NCBI GenBank assembly: GCA_028710885.1
Contig: JAQTTG010000003.1
Location: 1 to 64,000 of the forward strand
Direction: 5' to 3'
DNA: 64,000 nt
Source of the DNA: Sulfuricurvum sp.
GTDB taxonomy: Bacteria; Campylobacterota; Campylobacteria; Campylobacterales; Sulfurimonadaceae
Positions within the stretch are counted from its first letter, which is position 1; each line of letters starts with the position of its first letter. Made by a program: the position numbers and the translations under genes. The notes below the pieces were generated by a model. The model was not told where the DNA came from. It made no database searches and saw only the letters and a list, made by a program, of their open reading frames with translations. Positions 6,033 through 60,794 of this stretch are shown here, one piece after another.

Positions 6033-6038
6033 TATAAT
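6033..6038 (+). promoter_or_regulatory. Candidate -10 box of rhodanese/molybdoenzyme operon
   Basis: TATAAT, 64 bases before the rhodanese start codon. There is no good -35 match upstream, consistent with either weak -35 conservation in this group or activator dependence through the dyad at 5952-5975. Confidence 0.5.
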
Positions 6039-6102
6039 AGGAACGGTTATTCCGTAAATTTACGCACATACGATTGTGCACATTATAAAAAAAGGAGCAC
6101 GG

Positions 6103-7224: not shown

Positions 7225-7233
7225 GGCAGAATT

Positions 7234-10137
7234 ATGACAAAAGTAATGAATAATAACCGCCGCAATTTTCTGAAAGTATCAGGAATGACGGCAGCATTGG
7301 TGGCATCACAAGGTTCACTTTTTGCTAAAACAAATGTAATGTCAGTTGAAAACGGTAAAGATAATTATCCAAACACCAACTACAGTGAAGATATGTATCG
7401 TAATGAGTTCTCTTTTACTTATGGAAAAAAAGAAGAACACGGGTTTGCTTATCACTGTGTAAACTGTCAAGGTAACTGTGCATGGGAAGTTTGGTCTCAC
7501 AATGGTGTTGTTACACGTGAGAACCAATCGGCTCGTTATCCGGTTATCAATGCAAAAATCCCGGACTTTAATCCGCGCGGATGTAATAAAGGGGTTCAGC
7601 ATTCACAGGTAATGTATCAAAAAGACCGTATCCTTTATCCGATGCAACGTGTTGGTGAGCGTGGAGAAGGTAAATGGAAACGTATTAGTTGGGATGAAGC
7701 GGCTGAAGTCGTATGTCAACAAATATTCGATTGTATGACTGATCCTGAACGTGGACCGGATAAATTGATGGTGCATGCTGGTACGGGTCTTTTGACTGAA
7801 GGACGTCGTGCTGCGCCATTACGTTTCTCAACTCAACTTGGTGCAATCCGTATTTACCCATCATCATATCTTGGGGATATGTTTTCGGGTGCTGCGATTG
7901 CGTATGGCGAGGGTAACGTTGGTTGTACATGGGATTTTATGTATAACGTTGACACTGCGGTTATGTGGGGTGGAAATCCGTCGGTTTCACGTATTCCGGA
8001 TGCTCACTTCGTATGGGAAGGGAAATATAATGGTGCAAAAATCATTGTTATTACCCCAGAATTCAATGCAACTGCTAAATCAGCTGATCTATGGATCCCA
8101 GTAAAAGCTGGCTCTGACAATATTCTTGCTATGAGTGTCATTAATGTTATTTTGAATGAAAAACTTTATAAACCTCAATTTATGGAAACATTTACAGATC
8201 TTCCATTTTTAGTAGATGTAGAAACACAAAAAATGATTCGCCGTTCCGATATGGAACATGCAGCGAATGAAGAAGATCATCATAAATTTGAAGAGCAATT
8301 TTACTCCATGAACAAAGTAACTGGTAAAGTAGCTTTGATGCCAGGTAGTGAAGGAAGTTCAATTAAATCACTTCGTCTTGATGAGCAAGGTATTGAACCA
8401 GAGCTTGAGGGAACATGGACCATTACCGATGTAAACGGTAAAAAAATTACTGTCACAACAGTCTTTGAAATGCTAAAAAAATCAGCAGCTAAATTTGCTC
8501 CAGAAGCAACCAAAGAGATTACGGGTGTTCATCCTGATACTGTTCGTCAATTAGCACGTGACATTGCATTGCCTAAAGTTGTTGAAATCACCACAGGATT
8601 CTCGTTAAATAAATATTTTAATGGTGTTATGTCTATTTGGAATATCGCATCTATCTGTGGATTGACTGGGCGCATGGGGCCATATGGCGGATTGAATACT
8701 GAAAATGAGTTTACCCTTTCAGGACTCGGTGCTCTTTCTGGTTTCAGCGGCAAATACAATGCTCGTTTCGGTTCAGGTTTCGTAGGTGAATTCGTATTTG
8801 GCGATGGGATGAAAACTTTTGATCAGTATTTTAGTGATGAAGATGTAAAACGTGCTCAAAACGGAATGTCTAAAAAAGAGTACATGGCAGTAGTATCTGA
8901 AATGCTCGGTCATGGTAAAGACAATAAAGAGAATTTGGATTCTAAGCATGGGAATCAAAATAAACCATGGTGGCAACCAGACTGTGCATTGATTATTGCT
9001 GACTCAAAATTTCGTCGTAATAAAGGCAGTGAATACCGTAAAGCATTCTTGGCTAAAACGAAATTTTTTGGATATGTCGATTACCGTATGTCTGAAGCGG
9101 CACAATTTGCGGACATCTTGCTTCCGGCAAAATCACACTATGAGGTGTATGACCTCCGTACTTCTCCGGGTTATCACCGTTTCACCAACTTGGCACAGCC
9201 AGTTGCTGATCTTAAAAACATCGGTGAAGCGATGGATGAATGGTCAATGTTTACATTCTTGGCTAAAAAAATGGAAGAGCTTGCTAATCGACCACAAAAT
9301 ATCGATAAAGCAAAAGTAAAAGATCATCCTAAATATGCAAAACCTGGGTTCCATGACTTGACTATCTTTCACAAAGAATTTACGAACACAGATGCTGAGT
9401 CTGAAGGTGCCGGTGAAGTTTATCTCGGTACTGATAAAATGGCAGTTCAAGCGGCATTAGAAAAATGTGAGCAATATGAGCCATGGACAATGGAAAAAAT
9501 GTACAAAGTGGGCGGATTCTTGCTTATCAATGAAAAAGCGGCAAAATCTTCACCGTTGTATTCTGACCGTCCATACAGTTCTATGGAGTTCAATCTCTAT
9601 AAATTTGAGCGTCTTGACACATTATCGGGACGTCAAACATTTTATGTTGACCATGATATGTATATCAAACTGGGTGCTGCAACCAATACAGGTATGGAAG
9701 GGATTCGTCCAAAATCGAAAGATTATCCATATGTATTCATGACTCCGCATGCGCGTTGGTCAATTCACTCGAACTATAAAACATCTCGTACCCTTCTACG
9801 TCTTCAACGTGGTCAACCTGCTATTCAGGTTAATCGTGTAGTTGCAGAAGCTAAAGGGATTAAAGATGGAGATACTATTCGTATTTTCAATGCTTTAGGC
9901 GAATTTTTTGCAATGGCGAAACTCTCTTCTTCTGCACCGGCTGATGGCTTGGTAATGGAACATGGATGGGAACCGTTTATGTATAAAATGAACAAAGGGC
10001 ACAATGAAGTTGTTCCAACATCATTGAATCTACTTGAAATGGCTGATGGATGGGGGCACTTGAAATTTGGTGGCCTTTGGGACGGTAACCAGTACGCATA
10101 TGATGGCGCCGTGAACTACGAAAAAGCAAACGTGTAA
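7234..10137 (+). CDS. Type II DMSO-reductase family molybdoenzyme, catalytic alpha subunit
   Basis: A 967-residue molybdenum bis-MGD oxidoreductase, exported folded by Tat (NNRRNFLKVSGM near the N-terminus). It belongs to the type II branch (nitrate, selenate, chlorate, DMS and ethylbenzene enzymes). The FS0 cluster motif is H-x3-C-x3-C ... PRGCNKG, as in NarG, with the first ligand histidine (YHCVNCQGNC). Asp215 in SSYLGDM is the likely Mo ligand. Length and order match SerA, DdhA and EbdA. An extra cysteine follows the ligand histidine. The substrate cannot be read from sequence. A rhodanese partner and a sulfur-oxidiser host suggest polysulfide, thiosulfate or a related compound, but oxyanions or hydrocarbons are possible. 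Confidence 0.9.
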   Translation: MTKVMNNNRRNFLKVSGMTAALVASQGSLFAKTNVMSVENGKDNYPNTNYSEDMYRNEFSFTYGKKEEHGFAYHCVNCQGNCAWEVWSHNGVVTRENQSARYPVINAKIPDFNPRGCNKGVQHSQVMYQKDRILYPMQRVGERGEGKWKRISWDEAAEVVCQQIFDCMTDPERGPDKLMVHAGTGLLTEGRRAAPLRFSTQLGAIRIYPSSYLGDMFSGAAIAYGEGNVGCTWDFMYNVDTAVMWGGNPSVSRIPDAHFVWEGKYNGAKIIVITPEFNATAKSADLWIPVKAGSDNILAMSVINVILNEKLYKPQFMETFTDLPFLVDVETQKMIRRSDMEHAANEEDHHKFEEQFYSMNKVTGKVALMPGSEGSSIKSLRLDEQGIEPELEGTWTITDVNGKKITVTTVFEMLKKSAAKFAPEATKEITGVHPDTVRQLARDIALPKVVEITTGFSLNKYFNGVMSIWNIASICGLTGRMGPYGGLNTENEFTLSGLGALSGFSGKYNARFGSGFVGEFVFGDGMKTFDQYFSDEDVKRAQNGMSKKEYMAVVSEMLGHGKDNKENLDSKHGNQNKPWWQPDCALIIADSKFRRNKGSEYRKAFLAKTKFFGYVDYRMSEAAQFADILLPAKSHYEVYDLRTSPGYHRFTNLAQPVADLKNIGEAMDEWSMFTFLAKKMEELANRPQNIDKAKVKDHPKYAKPGFHDLTIFHKEFTNTDAESEGAGEVYLGTDKMAVQAALEKCEQYEPWTMEKMYKVGGFLLINEKAAKSSPLYSDRPYSSMEFNLYKFERLDTLSGRQTFYVDHDMYIKLGAATNTGMEGIRPKSKDYPYVFMTPHARWSIHSNYKTSRTLLRLQRGQPAIQVNRVVAEAKGIKDGDTIRIFNALGEFFAMAKLSSSAPADGLVMEHGWEPFMYKMNKGHNEVVPTSLNLLEMADGWGHLKFGGLWDGNQYAYDGAVNYEKANV

Positions 10138-10146
10138 GGGGTATAG

Positions 10147-11232
10147 ATGTCTAAAAGACAATTAGCAATGGTAATGGACCTGAACAAATGTATCGGGTGC
10201 CAAACATGTACCGTAGCATGTAAAACGCAATGGACGAACCGTAATGGTCGTGAGTATATGTACTGGAATAACGTTGAGACGTATCCAGGTACAGGTTATC
10301 CTAAAAATTGGATGGAACTTGGCGGCGGATTTGATGCTGCCGGCGATCTCCAACCGGGTGTGATCCCTAATCTTGAAGCTGATTATGGGGTACCTTGGGA
10401 TTATAACTATGAGTCTTTGATGGGTGGAGCAAGTTTCCGTCCAAATGTTGAGCCAACTTGGGGACCTAACTGGGATGAAGACCAAGGTGCTGGAGCATTC
10501 CCTCAAGACAACTATTTCTTTTACTTGCCACGTATTTGTAATCACTGTACAAATCCGGGCTGTTTGAGTGCGTGTCCACGTGATGCGATCTTTAAACGTG
10601 AAGAAGACGGTGTTGTTTTGGTTGACTTGGATCGTTGTCAAGGGTACCGCTATTGTATCGCGGGATGTCCTTACAAAAAAATCTATTTCAACCCGAAAAT
10701 CTCTAAATCAGAGAAATGTATCCTTTGTTTCCCACGTATTGAGCAAGGATTACCGCCTGCATGTGCGCAACAATGTGTCGGACGTATCCGTTTCGTAGGG
10801 TTCTTGGATGATGAAGATTCACAAGTGTATAAATTGGTTCATAAATATAAAGTAGCGTTAGGTCTTCGTTCTGATTATGGTACTCAACCAAACGTTTACT
10901 ATATACCTCCGACCGAATCTCCTGCTAAATTTGATGCAGAAGGTAAAATTATCGAAGGTTCAACGCGTCTTCCAATCGAAGAACTTGAAAAATTGTTTGG
11001 TCCTGCGGTTCATGATTCAATTGCAACATTGAAAGCTGAGATGAAAAAACGTAAAGAGACCGGTGTAAGTGAATTGTTGGATTTATTGATTGCATATCAA
11101 CACTCTGATATGTTCCGTCTTGACAATAATTACTATCAACAAGTAGCGAAAGAGAACAAACGCAATCCATTGGCACCAGTCGATACGCGTTATGTAGCTG
11201 GTAAATTTACAAAAGCTGGAGGGCACATCTAA
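10147..11232 (+). CDS. Type II molybdoenzyme beta subunit, four Fe-S clusters
   Basis: A 361-residue electron-transfer subunit of the NarH/DdhB/EbdB type. Four cysteine groups are visible: CIGCQTCTVACKTQW near residue 15, CNHCTNPGCLSACPRDA near 138, CQGYRYCIAGCPYKK near 165 and CILCFPRIEQGLPPACAQQC near 190. In the third group a tyrosine replaces one cysteine, as in DMS and ethylbenzene dehydrogenase (tryptophan in NarH), which gives a 3Fe-4S cluster. There is no signal peptide; it should be carried across the membrane with the alpha subunit. It starts 9 bases after alpha and overlaps the gamma start (TAATG). Confidence 0.92.
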   Translation: MSKRQLAMVMDLNKCIGCQTCTVACKTQWTNRNGREYMYWNNVETYPGTGYPKNWMELGGGFDAAGDLQPGVIPNLEADYGVPWDYNYESLMGGASFRPNVEPTWGPNWDEDQGAGAFPQDNYFFYLPRICNHCTNPGCLSACPRDAIFKREEDGVVLVDLDRCQGYRYCIAGCPYKKIYFNPKISKSEKCILCFPRIEQGLPPACAQQCVGRIRFVGFLDDEDSQVYKLVHKYKVALGLRSDYGTQPNVYYIPPTESPAKFDAEGKIIEGSTRLPIEELEKLFGPAVHDSIATLKAEMKKRKETGVSELLDLLIAYQHSDMFRLDNNYYQQVAKENKRNPLAPVDTRYVAGKFTKAGGHI

Positions 11233-12434
11233 TGAAAAAGATTCTTACTTCTATTCTTTCATTGGGACTTGCTTGTTCTGCTGCTTTGGCAGCAGATGCA
11301 CCAGTAAATGCACTCAAGGTAACAGATAGTCTTGATGGTATTACAGCTGATTCTGCTTTGTGGTCAAAAGCAAAATTTTCAGAGGTGACCCTTTATCCAC
11401 AAACAGCTCTTAAAATGAATGATAAAAAAGCTAATGATATGAATGCGGCTGATAAAGCTAAAAAAGCTGAAGTTGCTGCTTTGTATGATGGTAAAAATAT
11501 TGCATTAATGGTTAAATGGGCTGATGGAACCAAAAACATTCAGGGTTCTTATTCTTCTGATACCTACAGTGACGGTTTCGCGGTACAGTTTGCAGGTACT
11601 ACTAAAAAAGCTGAGCCGCTTCCATATATTGGGATGGGTTCTGAAGGTCGTCCAGTTATAGTACATCTTCAAAAAGCTACGGCAAGTGTATATGAGCCAA
11701 ATGGAAATAAAGATGTTGAAACACAAGTAAATCGCAATCAAACTAATTTGTTTGGTCAAGAATTGAAAGATTACGATGCTAAAGTGGCTTCTTTGGCAAA
11801 AACTGATTATGAACGTGTTTTTACAGCGCAAGGGTTCCGTTCTTTGACTGAAATCAAAGACGGTTCTGCTAAATCGTCTGCAAGTATGACATATGGGACA
11901 AACGGTTGGAGCGGAACACTTAGTCGCCCTCTTAATGATGATTACATAAAAAGTAACGGAACCGTACCTGTCGCAATTGCAGTATGGGATGGTTCTAAAA
12001 ATGGACGTGATGGTTTGAAAAACCTCTCTTCATGGGTTGCTGTGAATCTTGAGGGGATGAAGCCTGATGCTAAGCGTTTGGGTGAAATCACTGAAGTATC
12101 CAAAGGAGATGCGGCAAAAGGTAAAGAAGCATTAGCAACAAATGGTTGTAATGGTTGTCACCAAATAACCGCAGAAGATCCTGCAAGCGTCATGGCCCCT
12201 TCATTGAAAAATGTTGGTGGATATTCAACTGTTGCGTATCTTCGTGAGTCAATCTTAAAACCTTCTGCGGTTGTTGTACCAGGTTATAATCGTAATGCGC
12301 ACAGTAATACACCTTGGTATACAATTGAAAAAGGTAAACGCATTTCTGCGATGACTGATTACAGTTTTCTGGATAAAAAGACGGTAGAAGATATCGTTGC
12401 GTACCTCAAAACTCTCAAAGCGGAGGTAGAATAA
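11232..12434 (+). CDS. Molybdoenzyme gamma subunit fused to cytochrome c domain
   Basis: A 400-residue periplasmic heme protein (Sec signal 1-20, ending LAA). Residues 25-280 resemble the heme b gamma subunits of ethylbenzene and DMS dehydrogenases (EB_dh family), with typical strands such as NIALMVKWADGTKN and GWSGTLSRPLNDD. Residues 290-400 form a class I cytochrome c with CNGCH near residue 310 and a possible distal methionine in ISAMTDYSF near 375. Known gamma subunits of this family normally lack this second domain. The fusion suggests that electrons pass alpha-beta-heme b-heme c and then to a soluble or membrane cytochrome. The stop overlaps the next start (TAATG). Confidence 0.85.
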   Translation: MKKILTSILSLGLACSAALAADAPVNALKVTDSLDGITADSALWSKAKFSEVTLYPQTALKMNDKKANDMNAADKAKKAEVAALYDGKNIALMVKWADGTKNIQGSYSSDTYSDGFAVQFAGTTKKAEPLPYIGMGSEGRPVIVHLQKATASVYEPNGNKDVETQVNRNQTNLFGQELKDYDAKVASLAKTDYERVFTAQGFRSLTEIKDGSAKSSASMTYGTNGWSGTLSRPLNDDYIKSNGTVPVAIAVWDGSKNGRDGLKNLSSWVAVNLEGMKPDAKRLGEITEVSKGDAAKGKEALATNGCNGCHQITAEDPASVMAPSLKNVGGYSTVAYLRESILKPSAVVVPGYNRNAHSNTPWYTIEKGKRISAMTDYSFLDKKTVEDIVAYLKTLKAEVE

Positions 12435-12838
12435 TGAAAAAAGTAGCAATACTATGTGCTGCACTCGTTTTCAGCGCTTTTGCAGCTGAACCGGAAGGGC
12501 AAGAGTTTGAAGGTCTTTTAACAACGCCTGGATGTGCTGCAGAAGGTGCATTTGCTGATTGTTATTTGGAAAATTATAGCTGTGGTTCAGATGGATGTTT
12601 TAAAAAATCTGAAGCAGGCTCAATGAAAAAAGTGCCTTTAGCTTTATTCCAACAAAACACAGGGAAAGTGTATGTTGTGGATACGGCTAAGTTGAAAGTA
12701 TCAGAGCTTGGTGAAGGAATGAATAAAAATGGTGTCGTTATTGTTGGTGTACTCGATGAAGCGACCAATACTATTCACGCAACAGAGTTTAAAGCTCCAC
12801 CACCACCGAAAAAGTCATTTTTTAAAGGGTGTTTATAG
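12434..12838 (+). CDS. Small secreted protein of the molybdoenzyme operon
   Basis: A 134-residue exported protein (signal peptide 1-17, ending AFA) that I do not recognise. The mature part has four cysteines in TPGCAAEGAFADCYLENYSCGSDGCF and one near the C-terminus (KGCL), plus a short proline stretch (APPPPKK). It is translationally coupled to the gamma subunit and is the last gene before a hairpin, so it probably belongs to the complex or its assembly. Disulfides or a metal site are possible. Confidence 0.7.
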   Translation: MKKVAILCAALVFSAFAAEPEGQEFEGLLTTPGCAAEGAFADCYLENYSCGSDGCFKKSEAGSMKKVPLALFQQNTGKVYVVDTAKLKVSELGEGMNKNGVVIVGVLDEATNTIHATEFKAPPPPKKSFFKGCL

Positions 12839-12845
12839 CACCAAT

Positions 12846-12866
12846 CTAGCCCCTGTTCGGGGTTAG
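12846..12866 (+). terminator. Hairpin after structural molybdoenzyme genes
   Basis: CTAGCCCC (12846-12853) pairs with GGGGTTAG (12859-12866) around TGTTC, followed by a T-rich stretch (TTATTTT at 12871-12877). It can end or attenuate transcription before the chaperone gene 70 bases on, lowering TorD and ferredoxin relative to the structural subunits. Confidence 0.65.
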
Positions 12867-12937
12867 CTAATTATTTTAACTTTGCTGTCTCAAAGTCCTC
12901 ATATGACACAATCCCGTACTCTTTTTAGGAACTGTTT

Positions 12938-13507
12938 ATGAATAATGAATACCGTCTATATATTTATGCATTTTTATCGCGCGTAATGAGTGATATCCCT
13001 GACCGTCGTTTTATCCATGATCTCAAAAATAATGATGCATTATTAGAGATTATTGGTGAAGAGACACAATGTTGGGCCAATGATAATGATGTTGAGGTAT
13101 TGTATGATGCATTAAATATTGATTACAGTTCAATGTTTATTCTTAATACACAGCCAGTGGAATCGTTTGTTTTAGATGCTAAAAATGAAACACTTGTAGG
13201 TTTGCAAAACCCTGTTATGGCATTTTATTTTACACACGGTTTTGAAGTGAATATGGATCAAACTCAGATTATGGCTCCAGACCATCTCTCGATTGAGTTT
13301 GCATTTATGCAAACGTTAATTTATCGTAATGAAATTAAGCCTCAGTCTGAATTTTTAGAACAGCATCTAATCCCATGGGTAATCCCTTACATGATGGGAA
13401 TGAAGAGCATGGCTGATACCCCATTTTATCGAGATATTTGTGATTTTATCGTAGAGTTTTTAAGTGCTGATTATGAATATTTATCACAAGGCGGGATAAA
13501 TGGGTAA
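12938..13507 (+). CDS. TorD/DmsD-family molybdoenzyme chaperone
   Basis: A 189-residue all-helical cytoplasmic protein resembling the TorD/NarJ/DmsD chaperones. These bind the Tat signal or apo-form of molybdoenzymes and help insert the cofactor before export. The first third (YRLYIYAFLSRVMSDIPDRRF) and the region MAPDHLSIEFAFMQTL, the family's PDHI/L-x2-EL-like element, support this. The length is typical. It follows the structural genes behind a hairpin and overlaps the polyferredoxin gene by 8 bases. Confidence 0.82.
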   Translation: MNNEYRLYIYAFLSRVMSDIPDRRFIHDLKNNDALLEIIGEETQCWANDNDVEVLYDALNIDYSSMFILNTQPVESFVLDAKNETLVGLQNPVMAFYFTHGFEVNMDQTQIMAPDHLSIEFAFMQTLIYRNEIKPQSEFLEQHLIPWVIPYMMGMKSMADTPFYRDICDFIVEFLSADYEYLSQGGING

Positions 13508-14582
13508 TATTAATTTTATTCAAAAAAGCAATCTTTTTAGTTATACCGCAACACGATGTTTACGAAATGAGTATTATCATAATGATTGCAATATTTGCAT
13601 CGATTTATGCCCAAAGGGGGCTTTTCATATCGTTCGTAATAAGCTTACATTGTTTGAAAATGAGTGCGTAGGGTGTGCAGGATGTATCGGAAGTTGTCCT
13701 ACGGAAGCATTAGAGATCGAAAGCTTTGATCCAAATGGATTTTCGGCTGCATATCAGCATCAGAATGAAGTAACGCTTTCTTGTAAAACTTCTACTCCTT
13801 GTTTGGGAATATTTGATGTTGAACATTATATTGTTATGACATTGCGAGGAGATAAAAGTGTCGAATGTGATTTAAGTCATTGTGCAGGATGCGTTTTAAA
13901 TGAAACAGGCACTCTATATGGCTCAATTCGTGAAAAGATAGACGGAGCAAACCTTTTTTTAGAACAAATTGGGAGTGAACATCGAATTAAAACTATTGAA
14001 ATTAAAGAGGAAGAGAATGAGCGTAGAGCACTTTTTCGTAAAGGTTTTGATAGGGTAAAAGAATCGATTGCCAAAGAAGAAACGAACCTTTCAATGACAA
14101 CGGCACATCATAAATTGCCCGATATGAAAATGCCACTTAAGCGGGTATTGCTCAAAAATTCACTCAAAGAATGGACATCTCGATTAACTCAAACGACATT
14201 TGAAACATCTACTTCGTTGTTTTTTAATAAACAAATAGACTTTAAAAGTTGTACAAATTGTGGAGAATGCACTCAGTTTTGTCCAACAGATGCACTTTTC
14301 CCAACATCAGATAAACAAGGGATCTTTTTTGCGCAAGGTAAATGTATTGGATGCGGTATCTGCGAAGATATATGCAAACCAAACGCCATTACTGCCAAAG
14401 AAGGGTATGATTTAATAAGTATTGCATTTGATCGGGCAGAGCAAATGGTTCACTACGAGATGGTAACGTGTCATGAGTGCCGCTGTCCGTATCCGTATAA
14501 AGGTGGCGATCCGATTTGTGATCGTTGTTCCAGCTTCACAACACAGTTTTCAAATATGTTCACGATGGCGAAAGATTTGTAA
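13500..14582 (+). CDS. Cytoplasmic polyferredoxin with four 4Fe-4S motifs
   Basis: A 360-residue iron-sulfur protein without signal peptide. Cysteine groups: DCNICIDLCPKGA (about 32), CVGCAGCIGSCPTEA (about 59), CTNCGECTQFCPTDA (about 250) and CIGCGICEDICKPNA (about 283). A C-terminal knuckle CHECRCPYPYKGGDPICDRC (about 323-342) looks zinc- or rubredoxin-like. Between the ferredoxin pairs lies a region with further cysteines (CKTSTPC, CDLSHCAGC) that may bind another cluster. Its overlap with the TorD gene suggests a role in maturation of, or electron supply to, the molybdoenzyme. Confidence 0.82.
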   Translation: MGNINFIQKSNLFSYTATRCLRNEYYHNDCNICIDLCPKGAFHIVRNKLTLFENECVGCAGCIGSCPTEALEIESFDPNGFSAAYQHQNEVTLSCKTSTPCLGIFDVEHYIVMTLRGDKSVECDLSHCAGCVLNETGTLYGSIREKIDGANLFLEQIGSEHRIKTIEIKEEENERRALFRKGFDRVKESIAKEETNLSMTTAHHKLPDMKMPLKRVLLKNSLKEWTSRLTQTTFETSTSLFFNKQIDFKSCTNCGECTQFCPTDALFPTSDKQGIFFAQGKCIGCGICEDICKPNAITAKEGYDLISIAFDRAEQMVHYEMVTCHECRCPYPYKGGDPICDRCSSFTTQFSNMFTMAKDL

Positions 14583-51295: not shown

Positions 51296-51760
51296 ATGAA
51301 AAAATTGATTGTTTTATTACTGTTATTGATACCACTTGGGTTAAATGCAGCTCCCTATAAAGTAGGGCAATCGGTTCCACCGTTGGAGCTAAAAGATCAG
51401 TTTGGAAAAATGCACGTTATGAAAGTAATGCCGCATATTTTGATTATGGCATTTGAAAAAGGGACAGGGGCTAAAGTTAATGAATTCCTCGCTTCGCAGG
51501 ATAAGGGATATCTGAATCTACATAAAGCAGCTTTTGTTGCGGATATCAGTGGTATGCCGAGTTTTATTACTACTACGTTTGCTATTCCTAAAATGCAGAA
51601 ATACCCGCATACGGTTTTATTAATTTATGATGAAGAATTTGGACTCAAATTCCCAGGGCAAGAAGAAAAAATCACTATTATGAAATTTAGTGGTAATTTT
51701 ATTCAGTCAATTGATTATGTAAGTAGTTCTGATGATGTTAAAAAGGCAATTGAACAGTGA
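51296..51760 (+). CDS. Cysteine-less periplasmic thioredoxin-fold protein
   Basis: A 154-residue exported protein (signal peptide 1-18, ending LNA). The start YKVGQSVPPLELKDQFGKMH is that of TlpA/peroxiredoxin-type folds, and later elements (NKVNEFLASQD-like, YPHTVLLIYDEEFGLKFPG) follow. No cysteine is present in the mature chain, so it cannot be a thiol redox enzyme and may be a chaperone or binding protein. It is the first gene of a coupled six-gene operon (GTGA overlap with the permease). Confidence 0.72.
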   Translation: MKKLIVLLLLLIPLGLNAAPYKVGQSVPPLELKDQFGKMHVMKVMPHILIMAFEKGTGAKVNEFLASQDKGYLNLHKAAFVADISGMPSFITTTFAIPKMQKYPHTVLLIYDEEFGLKFPGQEEKITIMKFSGNFIQSIDYVSSSDDVKKAIEQ

Positions 51761-52836
51761 TTACACCTCTAAAAGCACTTCGAAAAAACCGGTTTAAAAC
51801 GGTGCTGATCTTTATCAGCATGAGTGTTTCAATTTGTGCAATTTTTCTTATTAGTGCTATATCTGGAGGGGTAGTGGGCATGTTTAGTTCGATGCTCAAG
51901 ACTGATGGAGATATTATTGTTACCCAAAAAGGGATTGCCGATACCTTCTTCAGTGATATTAACGCTACTTTGGTTAAGCCGATTTCACATATGGAAGGGG
52001 TTAAGGAAGTCTCAGCTTTGATTTTGGGGGCAGCTCCTGTTGATGCACTTCCTATCGTTGGAATATATGGTGTGAGTGAAGGGAGATTTAAAAGCTATCA
52101 CTTGACACATGGACATTACCCCTCGAGAGGAGAAGTCCTTCTGGGGTCTAAGATTGATGATACATTAAAACATCCATCGAGTATCATTCTTTCCAAAAAA
52201 ACATTTCATGTAAGCGGTGTTTTTAAAAGTCGTATAGGGTTTGAAGATGGTGGAGTAGTGATGGGACTTTCTGATGGAGGGGAGCTATTTCATAAAAGCG
52301 CGTCAATTATTCTCATTAGCTTAAATGATCTTAGTAAAAGCGATAGTGTTAAAGATCAGGTACAAATGCTCAGTGCGGATTTAGAGGCCAAAACAACAGA
52401 CAGTTTTATCGATTCTTATAACCAGTTTAAAATCATTAAAACCAGTTCTGATGTGATTGGTGCGATGGCCTTTTTGATGGGAATTTTGGGAATTGTCAGC
52501 ATGATGAGCATGGTAGTGAATGATCGAAAGGGAGAGTTTGGAATTATGCGCTCCATTGGACTTTCATCGCGGGTGATCATTTTAAAACTTCTGAGTGAAA
52601 CACTGATAGTAGCCGTAGTTGCATTTTTTGTTGCATGGGGGATAAGTGAGGGTGTCTTGGAATTAATTGAACATGCGGATAAATTTCAAGGTTATATTAA
52701 TGGAGAAATTACAACAGTACTTTTGATAAAAGTCTTTATGGTATCGGTTGTAATGGCACTATTTGGTACATTTATGCCGGCACTTTATGCTTCCCGTATT
52801 GATCCGATGAGTTTGATCCAAAAGGACCGAGCATGA
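51757..52836 (+). CDS. MacB/FtsX-type ABC permease
   Basis: A 359-residue membrane protein with one N-terminal TM helix (about 15-38), a periplasmic MacB-PCD-like domain (about 40-225) and three C-terminal TM helices (about 230-260, 280-305 and 325-350), the FtsX/MacB/LolC layout. The loop after the third helix contains the coupling-helix-like NDRKGEFGIMRSIGLSSRVI. GTG start, overlapping the previous stop. Type VII ABC systems of this shape do mechanical work on periplasmic proteins or lipids; they do not import. Confidence 0.9.
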   Translation: MITPLKALRKNRFKTVLIFISMSVSICAIFLISAISGGVVGMFSSMLKTDGDIIVTQKGIADTFFSDINATLVKPISHMEGVKEVSALILGAAPVDALPIVGIYGVSEGRFKSYHLTHGHYPSRGEVLLGSKIDDTLKHPSSIILSKKTFHVSGVFKSRIGFEDGGVVMGLSDGGELFHKSASIILISLNDLSKSDSVKDQVQMLSADLEAKTTDSFIDSYNQFKIIKTSSDVIGAMAFLMGILGIVSMMSMVVNDRKGEFGIMRSIGLSSRVIILKLLSETLIVAVVAFFVAWGISEGVLELIEHADKFQGYINGEITTVLLIKVFMVSVVMALFGTFMPALYASRIDPMSLIQKDRA

Positions 52837-53474
52837 AGATTATTGCAAAAGGGTTGGAGCATTATTACGCACACGAACATGTCTTACGTGGAATTGATTT
52901 GAATATTGAGCCAGGGAGTTTTACAGCGATTGTTGGGGAGAGCGGGAGTGGTAAGACTACTTTGCTTTCTATTCTTTCCACCTTGCTTCAACCCTCATCT
53001 GGGGAAGTCTTGTATGATGCAAAACTTCTTGCACAATGGGGAAATATTGATTTATTTCGACGTCGTCATATAGGATTTGTATTTCAATTTCATTATCTGA
53101 TTTCGTATCTGACATTGCGTGAGAATATTGCTTTGGCATCTTTGGGAGAATTTCAAGGAGAGATTGATCCGTTAATGGAGCGTTTGGGGATAGATCGTTT
53201 GGGCAGACGTTACAGTGATGAAGTATCCGGTGGAGAACGACAGCGTGCTGCTATCGCCCGATCTCTTATTAATCATCCATCGATTGTATTTGCGGATGAA
53301 CCGACAGGTAATCTGGATACCAAGAACGCTTTGGGTGTTTATGAACTTTTCGCGGAATTTTCACGCCAAAATACAACCTTTGTCGTAGCTTCTCACGACA
53401 AAAAAATTACTGAGTTTGCTGACACAATCATCGAAATGGAGGATGGCATTGTTAAAAACATTTTTACACGATGA
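52833..53474 (+). CDS. ABC transporter ATPase, MacB/LolD type
   Basis: A 213-residue ATPase. Walker A GESGSGKTTLLS (about 36), signature VSGGERQRAAIARSL (about 131), Walker B IVFADEPTGNLDT (about 151) and the switch histidine in ASHDKK (about 188). It is the LolD/MacB subfamily that pairs with FtsX-type permeases. ATGA overlap with the permease. Its 3' end overlaps the next gene. Confidence 0.95.
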   Translation: MKIIAKGLEHYYAHEHVLRGIDLNIEPGSFTAIVGESGSGKTTLLSILSTLLQPSSGEVLYDAKLLAQWGNIDLFRRRHIGFVFQFHYLISYLTLRENIALASLGEFQGEIDPLMERLGIDRLGRRYSDEVSGGERQRAAIARSLINHPSIVFADEPTGNLDTKNALGVYELFAEFSRQNTTFVVASHDKKITEFADTIIEMEDGIVKNIFTR

Positions 53475-54993
53475 ACTTCCGCTTGCGCTAGTTTGGCTTA
53501 TTTTAGGGCTAAGTGCTGGATTTATCTATTCAATTGAGATATTAGGGGTGGATGGGTCTATGACACTGTTTTCTCCTGAGCGTGCACGATCACTCCATAT
53601 TTCATTAATGTTGTATGGTTTTTTCCCTCTGTTTCTCTCATTATTGCCGTTTGCATTGTTTGAAAAAGAAGGGGTGTTATCTGCAAATGCAATGGGACAT
53701 TTGCGTCGCTATTTTGTGATTTGGAATCTTTTTTTATTGTTTATGACTATGGCTATTTTATTTGGGAATATTCGAGGATTACCATTCTATGATTTCCCTT
53801 ATCAGCTTAATTTTCTCCTTGCTTTTAGCGGTGTTTTTTATTTATTTGCCCTCTTAGATGCATTACGTCGCTATGAAAAACGCCCCCTTTGGGTTAATGT
53901 ATCGTTAGTTAGCGTTATTGTAGCTCCTATTGCACTGATCGTTTTGATGAATCCTCAATATGGTCAGGTAGAAAAAACACTGGTTGGCCCTCATGGTGAT
54001 AATACCCTTGGTATGAGCTTTGCATTGCTTCCGTTGTATTATTTATTAATAAAACTAACAGCGAGAGAGCATTTTGTTCCACGATGGCACAGTTTATGGA
54101 TTATACCTCTTACTGGATATATCGTCTCATTAGGGATTAGGAATTTTATCCATCCTCTCATGTACAATGAAGAGTGGTTTTTTCAGTATCTTACACTTCT
54201 TTATCTCCCTCTTTTATGGCGATGGTGGAGAGACAGTGGTTTAAAATTTAAACATAGCCCCTATCTCTTTTTTTCGATTATGGCTTTTGTGTTTGTCGAT
54301 GTAGAAGGCAATTTGCTTTTTATTCCTCAGATACGTGAATTGATTCACCGAAATGATTTGGTTGTTGGTCATGCGCATATCGCGATGGGGATAGCTGTCG
54401 CTTTTATGGCTTTGAGCATTGTTCACCGCTTTCTCCCTGGTCTTGTAACCCGTGCCTGTGCTATAGGATGGACTGTATTGGTTGCCCTGATGGCTGTTGC
54501 TTTGAGTGTTGTTGGTATGATTGAAGCGGGATGGATAAATGGAAATATGCAGCTATTTTTCGGTGCACGATCTGTATTCGGATTTATTTTGATCCTGATG
54601 GTTGGACAAATTTTGTTACGACGAGTCAAACCACGTCATGTTAATTTGGTTGAGTGGTATCACTGGATTGGCTTTATGAGCGATGCGGGAGGTGGATTGA
54701 TGCTACTTATAGCTGGAGGATGGATTTTTCCTCTTCTTGGGTGGCATTTTAGTGGAAATTATGAGTATGTTGTATTTGCTTTTATGATTGGAACGGGGAT
54801 GGTCCATTGGGCTGGGCTTCAGGGGAGTGCTGAGCGCTTCGCTTCTTTAAGTTCCACAATACGTGTAATAGTAGCATCAGTTTTTGCTGCATTATACATG
54901 GCAGGTACGATGGATATGATCGCTTTGTTGGTTGCTTTTTATGATAGTGTATTCGCGATGATTTATTGGTTATATTTGCGGGGTAAAGTGTGA
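53449..54993 (+). CDS. CcoN-like heme-copper oxidase relative
   Basis: A 514-residue integral membrane protein with 12 or more TM helices, like cbb3 oxidase subunit I (CcoN). The low-spin heme ligand helix II reads RSLHISLMLYGFF (CcoN RPLHTNAVIF), and helix X reads VVGHAHIAMGIAVAF (CcoN GHVHSGALGW) with both histidines. The CuB-binding helices are altered: helix VI is GPHGDNTLGMSF where CcoN has GHNAVGFF, and helix VII is RNFIHPLMY where CcoN has PHHLHY. It probably keeps two heme b but has no CuB. A TTG start at 53449 has GGAGG 6 bases before it; ATG 53443 is possible. Confidence 0.78.
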   Translation: MLKTFLHDELPLALVWLILGLSAGFIYSIEILGVDGSMTLFSPERARSLHISLMLYGFFPLFLSLLPFALFEKEGVLSANAMGHLRRYFVIWNLFLLFMTMAILFGNIRGLPFYDFPYQLNFLLAFSGVFYLFALLDALRRYEKRPLWVNVSLVSVIVAPIALIVLMNPQYGQVEKTLVGPHGDNTLGMSFALLPLYYLLIKLTAREHFVPRWHSLWIIPLTGYIVSLGIRNFIHPLMYNEEWFFQYLTLLYLPLLWRWWRDSGLKFKHSPYLFFSIMAFVFVDVEGNLLFIPQIRELIHRNDLVVGHAHIAMGIAVAFMALSIVHRFLPGLVTRACAIGWTVLVALMAVALSVVGMIEAGWINGNMQLFFGARSVFGFILILMVGQILLRRVKPRHVNLVEWYHWIGFMSDAGGGLMLLIAGGWIFPLLGWHFSGNYEYVVFAFMIGTGMVHWAGLQGSAERFASLSSTIRVIVASVFAALYMAGTMDMIALLVAFYDSVFAMIYWLYLRGKV

Positions 54994-55946
54994 ATCTTCT
55001 CGTTATAGTGCTCGCTTCTCAGCTATTATATTATTTGCTTATAGCACAAACTGGTGTTGTAGGGGCATTTGATTCGCATATTCATGATTTATTTACTCTT
55101 CCTATCGGCGGTATTTTGGGAAGTTTATTGAGTGCGTATTGGCGTCATCATGGAATCCGAATGGAGCTTTGTTTTTTATTTGGAATTCAGATGATGATTT
55201 CATGGTTTTATCCTAATTATTCATTGGGGATGTTGCTAGTATTGGGGTTTGTTGTCGGGTATACAACCCCTCTTTTACTTTATATCTTTAGATATCAAAG
55301 TAAGCGTCAACTTGCATTCGGTTTGGCTATTTCATATGCAATCGGTACTGCTTTGTATACCTATCCATTTCTCGAAAGAGGTACTATCGCAATAGTTCTT
55401 CCTCTAATTTCAGTAGCGGCATTACGTTTTTCTAACCTCAAATTTGCTGTTCCCGTTCAAGAGCATAAACCGTTTAATCTAGGGACAGTTGGAATTATGA
55501 TGCTTTGGATTTTTACTGATTCAGCCCTTTTCGAAACGCTTAGCCGATCAGATGGGATGGATATTTGGAGTCAAAATGCGGTAATTATTATTTCTTCACA
55601 TCTTTTGGGTGTCTATTTGGCTTATCGTTATGGAAAAGATTTACTTTCTCAAACAAAAGTGATTTGGATACTTTTTGTAATGAGTTATATTTTATATTGG
55701 CTACGAGAACCAATTTTACTTTCTGTTATCTATCCTATTGTCATTTCGTATTATAATGTTTTGCTATTTCAAGCGCTGATAAAAATCGGTGACATTAGGT
55801 GGATCGCATTGTCAATGGTCGGAGTCGGTTGGGTCGCTGCTTCCATGGCTAATGGCGTTGCTCTAGAACAGCAGTTGTGGGTTGCGGCGGCGGTTCTAGG
55901 TGTTTTTGGGATTCTGTATCCATTTTATTTTAGGAGAGTATCATGA
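54990..55946 (+). CDS. Unknown integral membrane protein, about 10 TM
   Basis: A 318-residue hydrophobic protein with about ten TM helices and short loops; the first loop contains GVVGAFDSHIHDLF, with a His pair that could bind heme or metal. I do not recognise it. GTG start overlapping the stop of the CcoN-like gene (GTGA), and its own stop overlaps the YceI start (ATGA). It is probably an obligate partner of the CcoN-like protein. Confidence 0.7.
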   Translation: MNLLVIVLASQLLYYLLIAQTGVVGAFDSHIHDLFTLPIGGILGSLLSAYWRHHGIRMELCFLFGIQMMISWFYPNYSLGMLLVLGFVVGYTTPLLLYIFRYQSKRQLAFGLAISYAIGTALYTYPFLERGTIAIVLPLISVAALRFSNLKFAVPVQEHKPFNLGTVGIMMLWIFTDSALFETLSRSDGMDIWSQNAVIIISSHLLGVYLAYRYGKDLLSQTKVIWILFVMSYILYWLREPILLSVIYPIVISYYNVLLFQALIKIGDIRWIALSMVGVGWVAASMANGVALEQQLWVAAAVLGVFGILYPFYFRRVS

Positions 55947-56473
55947 TGTTAAAGTTGAGTTTGGCGGCGGTTGCATTGACCGCTTCGGTTTATGCAGGTA
56001 ATTTGTCATTCGAGTCGGGTCTTATTAAAGCCCATACAGAAGTTTTTGGTGATAATACAATCGATCCGATGACTAAAAAAGCGACGTCGCATTTAAGTAT
56101 GGAAGCTAATCCTACTACTTTAAAAGGGACGATAGAGATATCGATGAATGATCTTTTCAGTGATAATAAAAAACGTGATGAACACATGCAAGAAGCGGTG
56201 GAATCATCTCTTTTCCCAAAAGCAGTCTTTGATGTTAAAGATGTTGTCGCTAAAAGTGGAAACAATTATGTACTTAAAGGGATGATGACACTTCATGGTG
56301 TTACAAAAGCGATGAGTTTTGACGGTAGCATTTCTGAAGAGGGAAATAATGTTCATATAAAAGCGGCAAGTAGTATGAAAATGACTGATTTTGGTATCAA
56401 ACCGATCAAAATGATGTTTTTGACAGTACGTGATCAAGTTGATTTGAATGTTGATGTTGTATTAAAACGATAA
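55943..56473 (+). CDS. YceI-family periplasmic protein
   Basis: A 176-residue exported lipocalin-like protein (signal 1-18, ending VYA) of the YceI family, which binds isoprenoid chains such as those of quinones. Family-type strands: LIKAHTEVFGDNTIDPMT, HMQEAVESSLFPKAVFDVKDV, LKGMMTLHGVTKAMSFDGSI and MKMTDFGIKP. It ends the six-gene operon; its link to the CcoN-like membrane protein suggests quinone or isoprenoid handling in a redox process. Confidence 0.92.
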   Translation: MMLKLSLAAVALTASVYAGNLSFESGLIKAHTEVFGDNTIDPMTKKATSHLSMEANPTTLKGTIEISMNDLFSDNKKRDEHMQEAVESSLFPKAVFDVKDVVAKSGNNYVLKGMMTLHGVTKAMSFDGSISEEGNNVHIKAASSMKMTDFGIKPIKMMFLTVRDQVDLNVDVVLKR

Positions 56474-56670: not shown

Positions 56671-59600
56671 ATGTTGAAAACAGTTGTGATCGGGAACAAA
56701 GTAGGTGGTGTGACGCAAACAGCTCATTTCATGGTTATGGGCGGTGATAGAATCGTTTTGGTTGATGCGGCTGGAAATTCACCTAAACACATAGCTACAA
56801 AGATTATTAATAAAGACCTTTATATTTATGAAGAGGGTTCTTCAGAGCCTTCAGCTATTTTAAATGATTACACAACGTTTCAACAATCAGTCCAAGTATC
56901 TGGCGTAGATGCTAGTGGTACGTATATTAACTATGCACAAACTGAATCAGGCATTATGGAATTGGGGGCAGCGCCAACAGTTGCAGCTGCTGCGGCAACT
57001 GAGACGGCTATTATCTCTTCTAATGCATTATGGGGATTGGCAATCTTGGCAGGTGCTGGAGGTATTGCGGCAGCTGCAGGTGGCGGTGGTGGCGGTGGCG
57101 ATTCAACTCCTGCTCCAGTGGTAACAAATCCTTTAGCTCCTACAGCGACTATTACCATGTCAGATACGCAATTGAATCAAGGACAAACGGCTACGGTTAC
57201 GATTGTGTTTTCAGAAGCTGTTAGTGGATTTAGTAACACCGATATATCCGCACCAAACGGGACATTGACGACTTTTACGAGTAGTGACAGTATAACGTGG
57301 ACTGCAACTTTTACTCCAAGCACCAGTACGACAGTCACAGCTAATACTATAACCCTTATTGCTGGTTCATATACTAGCACATCAGGAAGTGTAGCAGGCA
57401 ATGGTGCAACAAGTGCCAATTATATTGTTGATACCATAACTACTGCGACGGAAGTCACGGTAATTGTCAGCAATGATCAAGGTGGTGTAGCTGCAAACAT
57501 AGCCGGGACTAGCATACTGTATACTTTCACATTTAGTGATACGGTTACTGGATTTACTGCTGGTGACATAACGGTAGCACATGGAACGCCAGGAGTCTTT
57601 ACTCAAGTGTCCGGTTCTGTTTATACGTTGGCAGTTACTCCTACCGCTGGATATGAAGGAAATGTAACAGTAGATGTAGCTGCCGGAGTAGCGCAAAACA
57701 TTGCAGGGACTTTAAATTCAGCAGCATACACTTCAAACCAAGCTGCAGATATGCTTGCGCCAACAATAACTTCTGTTACATTAGCAGATCCAGCACTGAC
57801 AATAGGAGAAACGACAGCGGTTACGGTTGTATTTTCTGAAGCCGTAAAGAATTTTTCTAATGCTACTCTTGATCTAAGTGGAGCACAAGGGACGCTAAGT
57901 ACTTTGACAAGCTCAGATAATATCACATGGACGGGGCTATTTACCCCTTCTGCTCTTACTAGCGATGCATCCAATAAAATTCAAGTTTTAAATACCTATA
58001 CTGATATGGCGGGTAATGCAGGTACATTGGGGGTTAGTGCAAATTTTACAATTGACACACGCAGCAGTCCGACAGCCTCTCCAACATTTACATTTACAGA
58101 TGATGGTGTTAGTACTACCGATGGGATAACTCACACGAATGGACTTACCGTTTCAGGAATAACGGCAGGTAATACATGGGAATATAGTCTGAATGGAGGG
58201 TCGTCATGGACGAATGGTACAGGAACAACTTTTAATCTTGTTGAAAATCTTCAGTATAATCCGGGGCAAATTGAAGTACGTCAAACTGATTCGTTGGGCA
58301 ATGTCAGTAGCATTGTGACAAATGCTCAAGCGATTACTGTAGATACGATTCTTCCGACTGTTACAATCGTTGATGATGAACCGATGGTGACAGCTAATAT
58401 GGATGGTAAAAATACCGATGGCAGTATTCAGGCTAATGGAGGAGATATTCTCTATACATTTACATTTAGCGAAGCGATAAAAAACTTTTCTATAGATGAT
58501 ATTATGGTGACTATGCAAAAAACAGATGGAACTGTTGATGCCGCTTATACGGCAGCTAGCGATACTAATGGGCTAGTTTTTAAAACATTTGCAAAAGTGT
58601 CGGATACGGTCTATACGCTATCTGTTCATCCGCAAGCAGGATATGAAGGTGATATGAAGGTAAGCATCCTTCCAACAGCGGCTACAGATACAGCTGGTAA
58701 TAATATCGATAATACTAATCCCTCTGATCTAGGATCGATACAAGCTGTAGATATGAGAGCACCATTTCCTTCACCACTTTTACATGGGTCTCTTACCGTA
58801 AGTGCATATGATGTTACCCATCAGCGCCTTATTTTGAATTTTGATGAAACACTTGAACAAGTGAATCATACTGCTTTAGACTCAACTGGAGCACCTTTCG
58901 GTGTTATGATAAATGGTCAATCTGTGATAGTAAAAGCAGTTGGTGTATCAGATAATTCTGTTGGAATGGCTGATAATCAAGTATTTTTATATTTAGACCC
59001 AGTATTAAATGCTCGAGGTGAAAATTTTGATTGGATTAATGCAGGTATAACTGTTTCTTATACACATACGCCGGGTGATCTTACTACGGTGATACAAGAT
59101 TTGGCTGGGAATGATGCAACATCATTTAATGATTATGTTGTAGATACATTAGCTCCAGATGCTACAATAACAATGGCTGATACCTTTCTCTCATCCGGAG
59201 AGACGTCGAAAGTGACATTTGCATTTAGTGAAGCAGTAAATTTTTCAAATAGTGATTTGGATTTGACTCTAGCAAATGGAACAATGAGTACGTTATCAAG
59301 TGCAGATGGAGGTAAAACGTGGACAGGTGATTTTACCCCTACGATTAATACTACATCTTCTTCCAGCATCATTGGGCTAAATAATACATATACTGATATG
59401 TCAGGTAATCAGGGGATTGCAAATGGGGTAAACTATGCGATTGATACCCAAGCACCGATAATCAATATGGGTGCTACTACTGTTACACAGTTGACCCATG
59501 AAATGACATTTACTTTTAATGAAGCGCTGGATGCAGTTAATTTTGCCCCTGTGGGGATGTTTACTGCAACCGATGGTGTAACACAAGTTGTTGGCGATCC

Positions 59601-59808
59601 AAACCACAGTTTGGTTCATTTCGCTATACAAAGTGTCTCTATTAATGGCAATACTGCTACCGTAATGATTGATCCATCGATTCTTTCTACTGCAGGGACC
59701 ACATGGACACTTTCATATACAGATGCGCCAGGTAATGATACGCAAGCGTTGCAAGACCTTTATGGCAGTGATGTGAGCTCATTTACGTATAGTTACACTG
59801 TTATTTAA
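56671..59808 (+). CDS. Large Ig-like repeat protein with BapA-like N-terminus
   Basis: A 1045-residue protein. Residues 1-130 resemble the BapA/large-adhesin prefix (MLKTVVIGNKVGGVTQTAHFMV, then DRIVLVDAAGNSPKH and DLYIYEEGSSEPSAILNDYTTF), followed by an alanine stretch and a glycine run (AAAGGGGGGGDS). The remainder holds bacterial Ig-like units, including four with a TxSDxxLxxGxTxxVTxVFSEAVxxFSN consensus near 170, 380 and 845. There is no Sec signal peptide, so export by a type I system would be expected, but no secretion genes or C-terminal RTX signal are seen. The terminus ends mid-domain. Surface adhesion is the likely role. Confidence 0.75.
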   Translation: MLKTVVIGNKVGGVTQTAHFMVMGGDRIVLVDAAGNSPKHIATKIINKDLYIYEEGSSEPSAILNDYTTFQQSVQVSGVDASGTYINYAQTESGIMELGAAPTVAAAAATETAIISSNALWGLAILAGAGGIAAAAGGGGGGGDSTPAPVVTNPLAPTATITMSDTQLNQGQTATVTIVFSEAVSGFSNTDISAPNGTLTTFTSSDSITWTATFTPSTSTTVTANTITLIAGSYTSTSGSVAGNGATSANYIVDTITTATEVTVIVSNDQGGVAANIAGTSILYTFTFSDTVTGFTAGDITVAHGTPGVFTQVSGSVYTLAVTPTAGYEGNVTVDVAAGVAQNIAGTLNSAAYTSNQAADMLAPTITSVTLADPALTIGETTAVTVVFSEAVKNFSNATLDLSGAQGTLSTLTSSDNITWTGLFTPSALTSDASNKIQVLNTYTDMAGNAGTLGVSANFTIDTRSSPTASPTFTFTDDGVSTTDGITHTNGLTVSGITAGNTWEYSLNGGSSWTNGTGTTFNLVENLQYNPGQIEVRQTDSLGNVSSIVTNAQAITVDTILPTVTIVDDEPMVTANMDGKNTDGSIQANGGDILYTFTFSEAIKNFSIDDIMVTMQKTDGTVDAAYTAASDTNGLVFKTFAKVSDTVYTLSVHPQAGYEGDMKVSILPTAATDTAGNNIDNTNPSDLGSIQAVDMRAPFPSPLLHGSLTVSAYDVTHQRLILNFDETLEQVNHTALDSTGAPFGVMINGQSVIVKAVGVSDNSVGMADNQVFLYLDPVLNARGENFDWINAGITVSYTHTPGDLTTVIQDLAGNDATSFNDYVVDTLAPDATITMADTFLSSGETSKVTFAFSEAVNFSNSDLDLTLANGTMSTLSSADGGKTWTGDFTPTINTTSSSSIIGLNNTYTDMSGNQGIANGVNYAIDTQAPIINMGATTVTQLTHEMTFTFNEALDAVNFAPVGMFTATDGVTQVVGDPNHSLVHFAIQSVSINGNTATVMIDPSILSTAGTTWTLSYTDAPGNDTQALQDLYGSDVSSFTYSYTVI

Positions 59809-59894: not shown

Positions 59895-60794
59895 TTAATC
59901 TTGTTCCGGAGGGAAACGATAGATTTCACCTATTATGAGTGTTTTTGCATGAAAGGGATAGTTTTGCTTTCTGAACAACTTTTCAAACCATTCAATCGGT
60001 TCAGTTAAAGACTCATCGGAGAGCTTAAAGGTTCCATAATGAATAGGAATAAGAGTTTTTACTTTTAAATTTTCTGCTGCCTTCAGTGCTTCAGCTGGAT
60101 TGATATGGAAGTGCTTCATTATCTCTTCGGGTCGGTAGGCTCCGATGGGTAAAAATGCTTCATCGATATTAAAATGGTTACTTATTTCCTGAAAATGTTC
60201 TCCATATGCAGTATCCCCGCTATGATAGATGGTATGTTTAGGATTTTGGATGACATATCCTCCCCATAGTGCTTTGTTCATATCAAAGTGGATACGATTA
60301 CTCCAATGTTTAGCTGGTACCAGCGTGATGAATAGCCCCTCTACCATCATTGATTCCCACCATTCTAATTCAAAGCACCGTTCGCGATCTATTTTCCCTT
60401 TTAGGTATCGCCAAAATCCAGCAGGTGCCACTATAATTGTTTGAGGATTTTGTTTGAGGAGAAACATTACTGAGGTCTTGTCGTAGTGATCATAGTGGGC
60501 ATGGGTGATGAGAATTACGTCAGCATACAATTTCTCTTTAGGGATAGGAAGTGGACTCTGGCGACGATACATGGGGATATTTCCCAATACAGGATCTATC
60601 GCTACTGTCGTTGTCCCGATTTTTAGCCAGAGGGTTGCATGTCCTAACCATAGTGCATATTCACTATCCGGAAGTATTTCTTGAGAGATAATAGGGAGAG
60701 ATTTGTGTTCTTGTTCGGATGTTTGAAATGATTTTGAAAATTGCCATTTCAGTATTGTTTTAAGAGATATTTTTGGAGAAGTATATTTTTGCAT
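59895..60794 (-). CDS. MBL-fold metal-dependent hydrolase (UlaG/NAPE-PLD-like)
   Basis: A 299-residue metallo-beta-lactamase-fold hydrolase. The metal site is THAHYDHYDKTS (about 101), with further ligands in AKHWSNR (about 163), YHSGDTAYG (about 196) and IPIHYGTFKLSDE (about 255). The ATLWLKIGTTTVAIDPVLG start is typical of the UlaG/RomA/NAPE-PLD branch. The substrate is unknown. It lies 5 bases after the CDGSH gene, in the same transcript. Confidence 0.88.
   Translation of the reverse strand: MQKYTSPKISLKTILKWQFSKSFQTSEQEHKSLPIISQEILPDSEYALWLGHATLWLKIGTTTVAIDPVLGNIPMYRRQSPLPIPKEKLYADVILITHAHYDHYDKTSVMFLLKQNPQTIIVAPAGFWRYLKGKIDRERCFELEWWESMMVEGLFITLVPAKHWSNRIHFDMNKALWGGYVIQNPKHTIYHSGDTAYGEHFQEISNHFNIDEAFLPIGAYRPEEIMKHFHINPAEALKAAENLKVKTLIPIHYGTFKLSDESLTEPIEWFEKLFRKQNYPFHAKTLIIGEIYRFPPEQD

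Follow-up and report, generated by a model that had tools for sequence, protein, structure and literature searches.

A six-gene cluster of Campylobacterota and its putative role in envelope lipid handling

The window analysed here, a 64,000-nucleotide stretch of a contig from Sulfuricurvum sp. (JAQTTG010000003.1, positions 1 to 64,000), carries a cluster of six overlapping genes, termed A to F. They encode an ATP-binding cassette (ABC) transporter, a membrane protein of the heme-copper oxidase (HCO) fold, a transporter of the major facilitator superfamily (MFS) fold and a YceI-family protein, in addition to a small protein that matches no family. The six genes are arranged as follows.

51296-51760, + strand: gene A, open reading frame (ORF) of 154 aa, whose N-terminus looks signal-like from the sequence
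51757-52836, + strand: gene B, MacB/LolCE-type ABC permease with FtsX and MacB_PCD domains (Pfam)
52833-53474, + strand: gene C, ABC ATPase similar to LolD, FtsE and MacB (PF00005)
53443-54993, + strand: gene D, HCO-fold protein similar to CcoN and NorB, with a degenerate CuB site and four additional C-terminal helices
54990-55946, + strand: gene E, compact MFS-fold transporter of 12 helices in the predicted model
55943-56473, + strand: gene F, divergent YceI-family lipid-binding protein (PF04264) with a signal-like N-terminus

Gene organization and conservation of the cluster

Re-reading of the coordinates upheld the six same-strand ORFs and five overlapping junctions of a preliminary description, which had been made from the sequence of this stretch. 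Four junctions are 4-base overlaps (GTGA at 51757-51760, ATGA at 52833-52836, GTGA at 54990-54993 and ATGA at 55943-55946), and the longer one, between C and D, spans 32 bases (53443-53474) given a D start at ATG 53443, which relatives favour over the alternative TTG 53416. The same description had read the overlaps as the sign of a stoichiometric complex, which we reject: the ATGA/GTGA 4-base overlap is the most frequent overlap type in bacterial operons and carries no implication of stoichiometry, and in one genome (G046, locus L147) E-F sits about 4 kb away from A-B-C-D. A scan of promoters and terminators found 11 promoters against 19.1 expected and six terminators against 4.2, with nothing clearly exceeding the shuffled sequences.

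Conservation was followed in 150 relatives, searched by D and by E, and in a separate set of 397 genomes drawn evenly from Campylobacterota. In the even set, D and E occur in the identical 60 genomes, and 337 have neither; of 62 D matches, two weak partial ones (G043 and G066) were dropped. Among the 150 relatives, D is present in 41 and E in 44. Three of these have E only, namely G072, G089 and G006, the last with E found solely as its last 95 residues. In a further genome, G468, D has eight internal stops and E is open.

A genome scan by D gave 105 confirmed loci, of which the best 80 were analysed. Nearly all of these 80 belong to Campylobacterota by record title, two titles being uninformative (“Proteobacteria bacterium” and “bacterium”). 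In 53 of the 80, more than 1.5 kb of contig flanks the gene chain on both sides; besides D, present by construction as the bait, these contain B and C (53/53 each), E (52), F (51) and A (42). Their gene orders are ABCDEF, BCDEFA and BCDEF, plus two single cases, and the orders EFBCD(A) and BCDAEF occur among the 27 loci excluded for short flanks. Adjacent cluster genes are found in Sulfuricurvum, Sulfurospirillum, Arcobacter-type genera, Sulfurimonas, Sulfurovum and Nitratifractor. With D and with E as baits alike, the homologues stay together in other genomes, as the interpretation in the preliminary description required. The cluster goes beyond chance because D and E share the same 60 of 397 genomes and the unit outlasts re-ordering, and the variety of orders argues for a functional linkage of its genes, beyond mere inheritance. 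D had no match in 72,556 plasmid records, and a search of the literature, mostly openly accessible, yielded no description of this cluster. The six-gene unit is real and, as far as these searches reach, undescribed.

Several loci show local variation. At positions 7689-8633 of L061 (genome G109), a transposase-like insertion splits E. In G005 (C2:366320-367147) and G008 (C12:30425-31197), a second F-type YceI gene is flanked by fragments of E and of a NAPE-PLD-like gene, which are what is left of another copy of the locus that has decayed. In one genus (L067, L068, L070 and L071), the gene directly after F encodes a protein of about 410 aa that looks secreted and matches no NCBIfam or Pfam family; in L068 it is split. 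In three Arcobacter-type loci (L133 at 9186-13702, L130 at 4138-8777 and L151 at 3839-6680), the cluster is followed by a heavy-metal-type response regulator and kinase, and then by ORFs that by eye resemble a small cytochrome c, a di-heme cytochrome c and a cytochrome b561.

The HCO-fold protein D and the other cluster proteins

Protein D scores 20 bits against the COX1 family of Pfam, below the cut-off of 34.8. Its predicted model, with a predicted local distance difference test score (pLDDT) of 88.0 and a predicted template modelling score (pTM) of 0.87, has a 12-helix HCO fold at residues 1-399, which matches cNOR (PDB 3o0r_B) with a Z-score of 27.4 and CcoN (PDB 3mk7_D) with a Z-score of 26.8, over 379-383 residues. 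Four further helices follow the fold at residues 402-512, giving about 16 in total; the model has these extra helices only, and no signalling domain. As the model is of low confidence around the heme site, where residues 306-308 fall below a pLDDT of 50, no geometry was inferred there. Alignment of D against a profile of same-phylum CcoN by hhalign gave a probability of 8.6% and an E-value of 0.004, and because this support is weak, the mapping of ligands depends on the motifs and the fold match jointly.

Mapped in this way onto CcoN, H52 would correspond to the heme ligand of helix II, H184 to the first CuB ligand, and H310 and H312 to the HxH motif of helix X. We take the His residues of helices II and X to be the ligands of the low-spin heme, and a His of helix X that of the high-spin heme. 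All four residues of D are invariant in 67/67 sequences, as are H302, D186, N187, E244, D414, H455, R474 and D501. By contrast, the His-His pair of helix VII is unconserved: position 237 is G in 29 sequences, H in 22 and E in seven, and position 238, the second of the pair, is P in 20, E in 12, S in 10 and H in five (n=67). Since the heme His residues are kept and the helix VII pair is lost, D should bind two hemes, probably without a complete three-His copper site. H184 might bind the former high-spin heme as its other axial ligand, which would give two bis-His hemes in the manner of cytochrome b561. Because two of the three copper ligands are gone and four C-terminal helices have been gained, D is unlikely to be an O2 or nitric oxide (NO) reductase. 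The preliminary description had placed a CcoN-like, heme-bearing oxidase relative at the core of the system; the kinship to HCOs and the heme ligands are borne out, a working oxidase is not. Nor is D an indispensable core, being missing or broken in G072, G089 and G468, all of which keep E.

The single COX1-family gene of the window genome that exceeds the Pfam cut-off is a CcoN located elsewhere. Genomes of the window genus in which D was not detected (G020, G028, G030, G031 and G033) carry a COX1 gene of about 499-500 bits, mostly lacking in the D-positive members.

Profile searches support an MacB/FtsX-type ABC transporter, as first described. Protein B exceeds the Pfam cut-offs for FtsX (PF02687, 1.3e-17) and MacB_PCD (PF12704, 1.3e-10), and its matches among PDB profiles are MacB, LolF and LolE; against the LolC/E equivalog of NCBIfam it scores 57.2 bits, under the cut-off of 362.45. 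Protein C exceeds the cut-off for PF00005 (1.9e-32), with LolD as its top NCBIfam model at 184.9 bits, under the cut-off of 307.75. Together, B and C combine an FtsX C-terminal domain, a MacB periplasmic core and an ATPase (Pfam), as in MacB/FtsX (type VII) ABC transporters.

The YceI label of F likewise holds, with PF04264 at 7.3e-20 and about 72 bits against a cut-off of 23.7; three other YceI copies in the window genome score 151-156 bits compared with 71.8 for F, so F is divergent. Protein E has no Pfam family match. It had been taken for a 10-TM protein that could not be placed; instead, its AlphaFold model (pLDDT 94.6, pTM 0.91) is a predicted 12-helix MFS fold spanning the full length, which aligns to MelB (PDB 7l16) with a Z-score of 25.7 and a root-mean-square deviation of 3.5 over 312 residues. 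E has a single invariant His, and a conserved Cys or Met pair is absent. Protein A, formerly described as thioredoxin-fold, has no family match in Pfam, NCBIfam or PDB profile searches, so that a thioredoxin fold finds no sequence match there. With no Cys in the window protein and none conserved across 16 relatives, it has neither a CXXC motif nor a peroxidatic Cys, and a role as a redox thioredoxin is ruled out.

Metal-dependent phosphodiesterases beside the cluster

Clustering every ORF that lies within 6 kb, across 87 loci, revealed two hydrolases as recurrent neighbours. A calcineurin-like phosphoesterase is present in 41/87 loci, at a median distance of five bases and on the same strand for 42 of the 43 genes, and a NAPE-PLD-like hydrolase is present in 29/87. 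One of the two occurs in 70 of the 87 loci and both in none; many of the 17 loci with neither end at a contig edge.

The phosphoesterase takes the place of the NAPE-PLD-like enzyme in genera other than that of the window; its nearest NCBIfam models are YaeI and LpxG, each below its cut-off. Among the 150 relatives, phosphoesterases of at least 196 bits occur solely in E-bearing genomes (G063, G083, G072, G089, G109 and G139), and lower-scoring homologues with longer frames, mostly of 365-415 aa, are widespread. The NAPE-PLD-like gene lies inside the operon, 0-7 bases from its neighbours, in L117, L146, L120 and L063, and is convergent and beside F in most Sulfuricurvum loci. In L096, the hydrolase adjacent to the operon matches human NAPE-PLD (PDB 4qn9) with an E-value of 2.5e-37, and the hydrolase of the window is 68% identical to this homologue, with HAHYDH at residues 98-103 as an HxHxDH metal site. 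The window has the following two genes downstream of F.

56671-59808: repeat-rich protein of 1045 aa, between gene F and the NAPE-PLD-like gene
59895-60794, - strand: partner gene, NAPE-PLD-like hydrolase of metallo-beta-lactamase fold, convergent to the operon

In L076, the neighbour of F is a protein similar to the 1045-aa one, followed by an ORF resembling an ABC exporter, and we would guess that this region is the insertion of a type I secreted adhesin.

Proposed function and comparison with known systems

We tentatively propose, as the most economical reading but with clearly less than even confidence, that the cluster is an envelope lipid-handling and lipid-repair system of Campylobacterota. 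A MacB/LolCDE-type ABC transporter encoded with a YceI carrier points to the handling of a lipid or isoprenoid, and the phosphodiesterase partner strengthens the lipid side of this reading. In the LolCDE system, lipoproteins are extracted from the membrane and delivered to a carrier in the periplasm. By analogy to the transfer from LolCDE to LolA, a B2C2 transporter would draw a hydrophobic molecule from the inner membrane and pass it to F as the periplasmic carrier; its cargo might be an oxidised phospholipid fragment, a fatty-acid amide or menaquinone. D, as a two-heme b-type membrane protein, would relay electrons between the quinone pool and the cargo of F, in a role similar to that of LcoA. 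The phosphodiesterase, whether NAPE-PLD-like or LpxG/YaeI-like, would strip modified head groups and so clear damaged phospholipid, E would transport the resulting small or lyso-lipid product, and A may be, at a guess, a periplasmic adaptor. More doubtful is the specific form of this proposal, in which D would be an oxidase that lost its copper site, gained four helices and now serves as a quinone-linked donor to a lipid carrier within a seven-gene envelope repair machine that uses one or the other of two unrelated metal phosphodiesterases.

Precedents for single steps are found in the literature. YceI proteins are reported to bind isoprenoids and ubiquinone-8; BcnA and the cytochrome b561 LcoA are described as curbing lipid peroxidation, with LcoA proposed to re-reduce the quinone of BcnA (PMC9113575). 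The YceI protein of Helicobacter pylori is reported to bind erucamide (PMC3928532), and NAPE-PLD to cleave phosphatidylethanolamine bearing aldehyde modifications from lipid peroxidation (PMC12214272). The preliminary description had pictured a membrane redox machine that extracts or delivers an isoprenoid or lipid; this picture survives in part, with the six-gene unit, the heme protein, the ABC transporter and the YceI protein kept, but without an oxidase core, a thioredoxin or a stoichiometric complex.

A number of observations weigh against the proposal. The identity of the cargo is argued by analogy, and the YceI, MFS and MacB folds each accept many different ligands. F matches BcnA (PDB 5ixh) and BcnB (PDB 5ixg) weakly, with E-values of 0.23 and 0.015, respectively (structures assigned as in PMC9113575), and the window genome has four further YceI genes besides F. 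Cytochrome c and quinone-site subunits are absent from the six genes. D is absent from G072 and G089, which retain A-B-C-E-F (in G089, the match to A is weak and partial at 28 bits), and is broken in G468; its electrons are therefore not essential everywhere. Neither hydrolase is found in 17/87 loci, of which L095, L098, L143 and L070 have at least 6 kb of DNA on each side. The NAPE-PLD-like gene also occurs in genomes of the window genus in which D was not detected (for example G020, G028 and G030) and on a separate contig in G002 and G003, so it is tied to the cluster less closely than the phosphoesterase is.

These losses of D would fit a MacB/LolCDE-type envelope exporter of a lipid, glycolipid or surface molecule, with YceI as its carrier and D as a structural or regulatory relic of no redox function. 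B and C are plainly of this type, two of the three E-keeping genomes with a lost or broken D retain A-B-C-E-F, and the best-known relatives of the partner phosphodiesterases act on lipids. A non-redox D is nevertheless hard to explain, because the four remaining His residues of its heme and copper sites are invariant in 67/67 sequences and D accompanies E in 60/60 genomes of the even sample; we consider such an exporter rather unlikely. Heme or metal trafficking, in which an HrtBA-like ABC transporter and the MFS protein would move heme or copper and D would be a heme sink or an oxidase assembly platform, appears improbable. It has precedents in HrtBA, which exports heme and is of the MacB type, and in CcoA, an MFS protein that imports copper for the cbb3 oxidase; the ligands of D predict a heme binder, and the regulator pair after the Arcobacter-type loci matches cztR_silR_copR and cztS_silS_copS best in NCBIfam, both below cut-off. 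However, E lacks a conserved Cys or Met pair and has one invariant His, the YceI and phosphodiesterase partners are left unaccounted for, and a COX1-family gene exceeds the cut-off in 141/150 relatives, compared with D in only 41/150.

The same two-component genes, together with a heme site whose distal metal site is incomplete, could suggest that D senses gas or redox state in the membrane and thereby gates the ABC/MFS transporter. This is quite improbable in our estimate, as D gained helices rather than a signalling domain, and regulator genes are not adjacent to the cluster in the window or in the other Sulfuricurvum loci examined. A respiratory function of D in NO or O2 reduction, with the other genes serving its maturation or protection, is very unlikely. 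Its fold is nearest to cNOR and CcoN and the heme ligands are kept; against this, only one of the three CuB/FeB ligands is retained, separate cNOR-like and gNOR-like proteins exist in the D-bearing genomes G083 and G093, the cluster has no cytochrome c subunit, and nosZ is not associated with D. A link to denitrification was rejected on the separateness of the cNOR- and gNOR-like genes and on the nosZ counts: nosZ (TIGR04246) exceeds its cut-off in 4/41 D-positive and 33/109 D-negative genomes, with a Fisher p of 0.01 (avoidance) for all genomes and 0.72 outside the genus, kinship being ignored in both.

If the lipid-handling proposal is true, D would represent a lineage of the HCO superfamily that kept its hemes, most likely without gas chemistry. 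For the sulfur-oxidising Campylobacterota that inhabit vents, sediments and aquifers, the cluster would be a sign of a dedicated multi-gene system for lipid repair or trafficking. It would also supply a testable set of partners both for bacterial NAPE-PLD-like enzymes and for the YceI proteins, about whose physiological role there is still debate.

Compared with known systems, D shares with CcoN of the cbb3 oxidase and NorB of cNOR the HCO fold, the His ligands of both hemes and the first CuB/FeB His. It differs from them in lacking the helix VII His-His pair and in having four more C-terminal helices, and its cluster encodes no CcoO/CcoP, NorC or cupredoxin partner. The gNOR (NorGH) of Sulfurimonas and Sulfurovum belongs to the same superfamily and occurs in the same phylum; its hallmark is described as an active-site Asp that replaces the usual residue, with the helix VII HH kept (PMC8756737), and D has neither trait. 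The gNOR-like proteins that coexist with D in the two genomes named above, classed by their motifs, keep the HH of helix VII and, by eye, have an Asp in place of the helix VI His of D. The partner hydrolase is homologous to NAPE-PLD and shares its HxHxDH motif, yet is bacterial and of 299-304 aa. As in the LolCDE-LolA system, an FtsX-type permease and a LolD-like ATPase are encoded next to a periplasmic carrier whose pocket is hydrophobic; here there is one permease gene instead of LolC and LolE, the scores are far under the Lol equivalog cut-offs, and the carrier is of the YceI family rather than LolA. The BcnA-LcoA system of Burkholderia cenocepacia differs in that an HCO-fold protein of about 16 helices replaces cytochrome b561, of which Pfam detects none beside the genes of the window cluster, in that a MacB-type ABC transporter, an MFS protein and a phosphodiesterase are added, and in that no aldehyde reductase is seen in the present cluster. 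Both systems nevertheless encode a YceI carrier together with a di-heme b-type membrane protein, here a predicted one, and in both a lipid or quinone ligand is expected.

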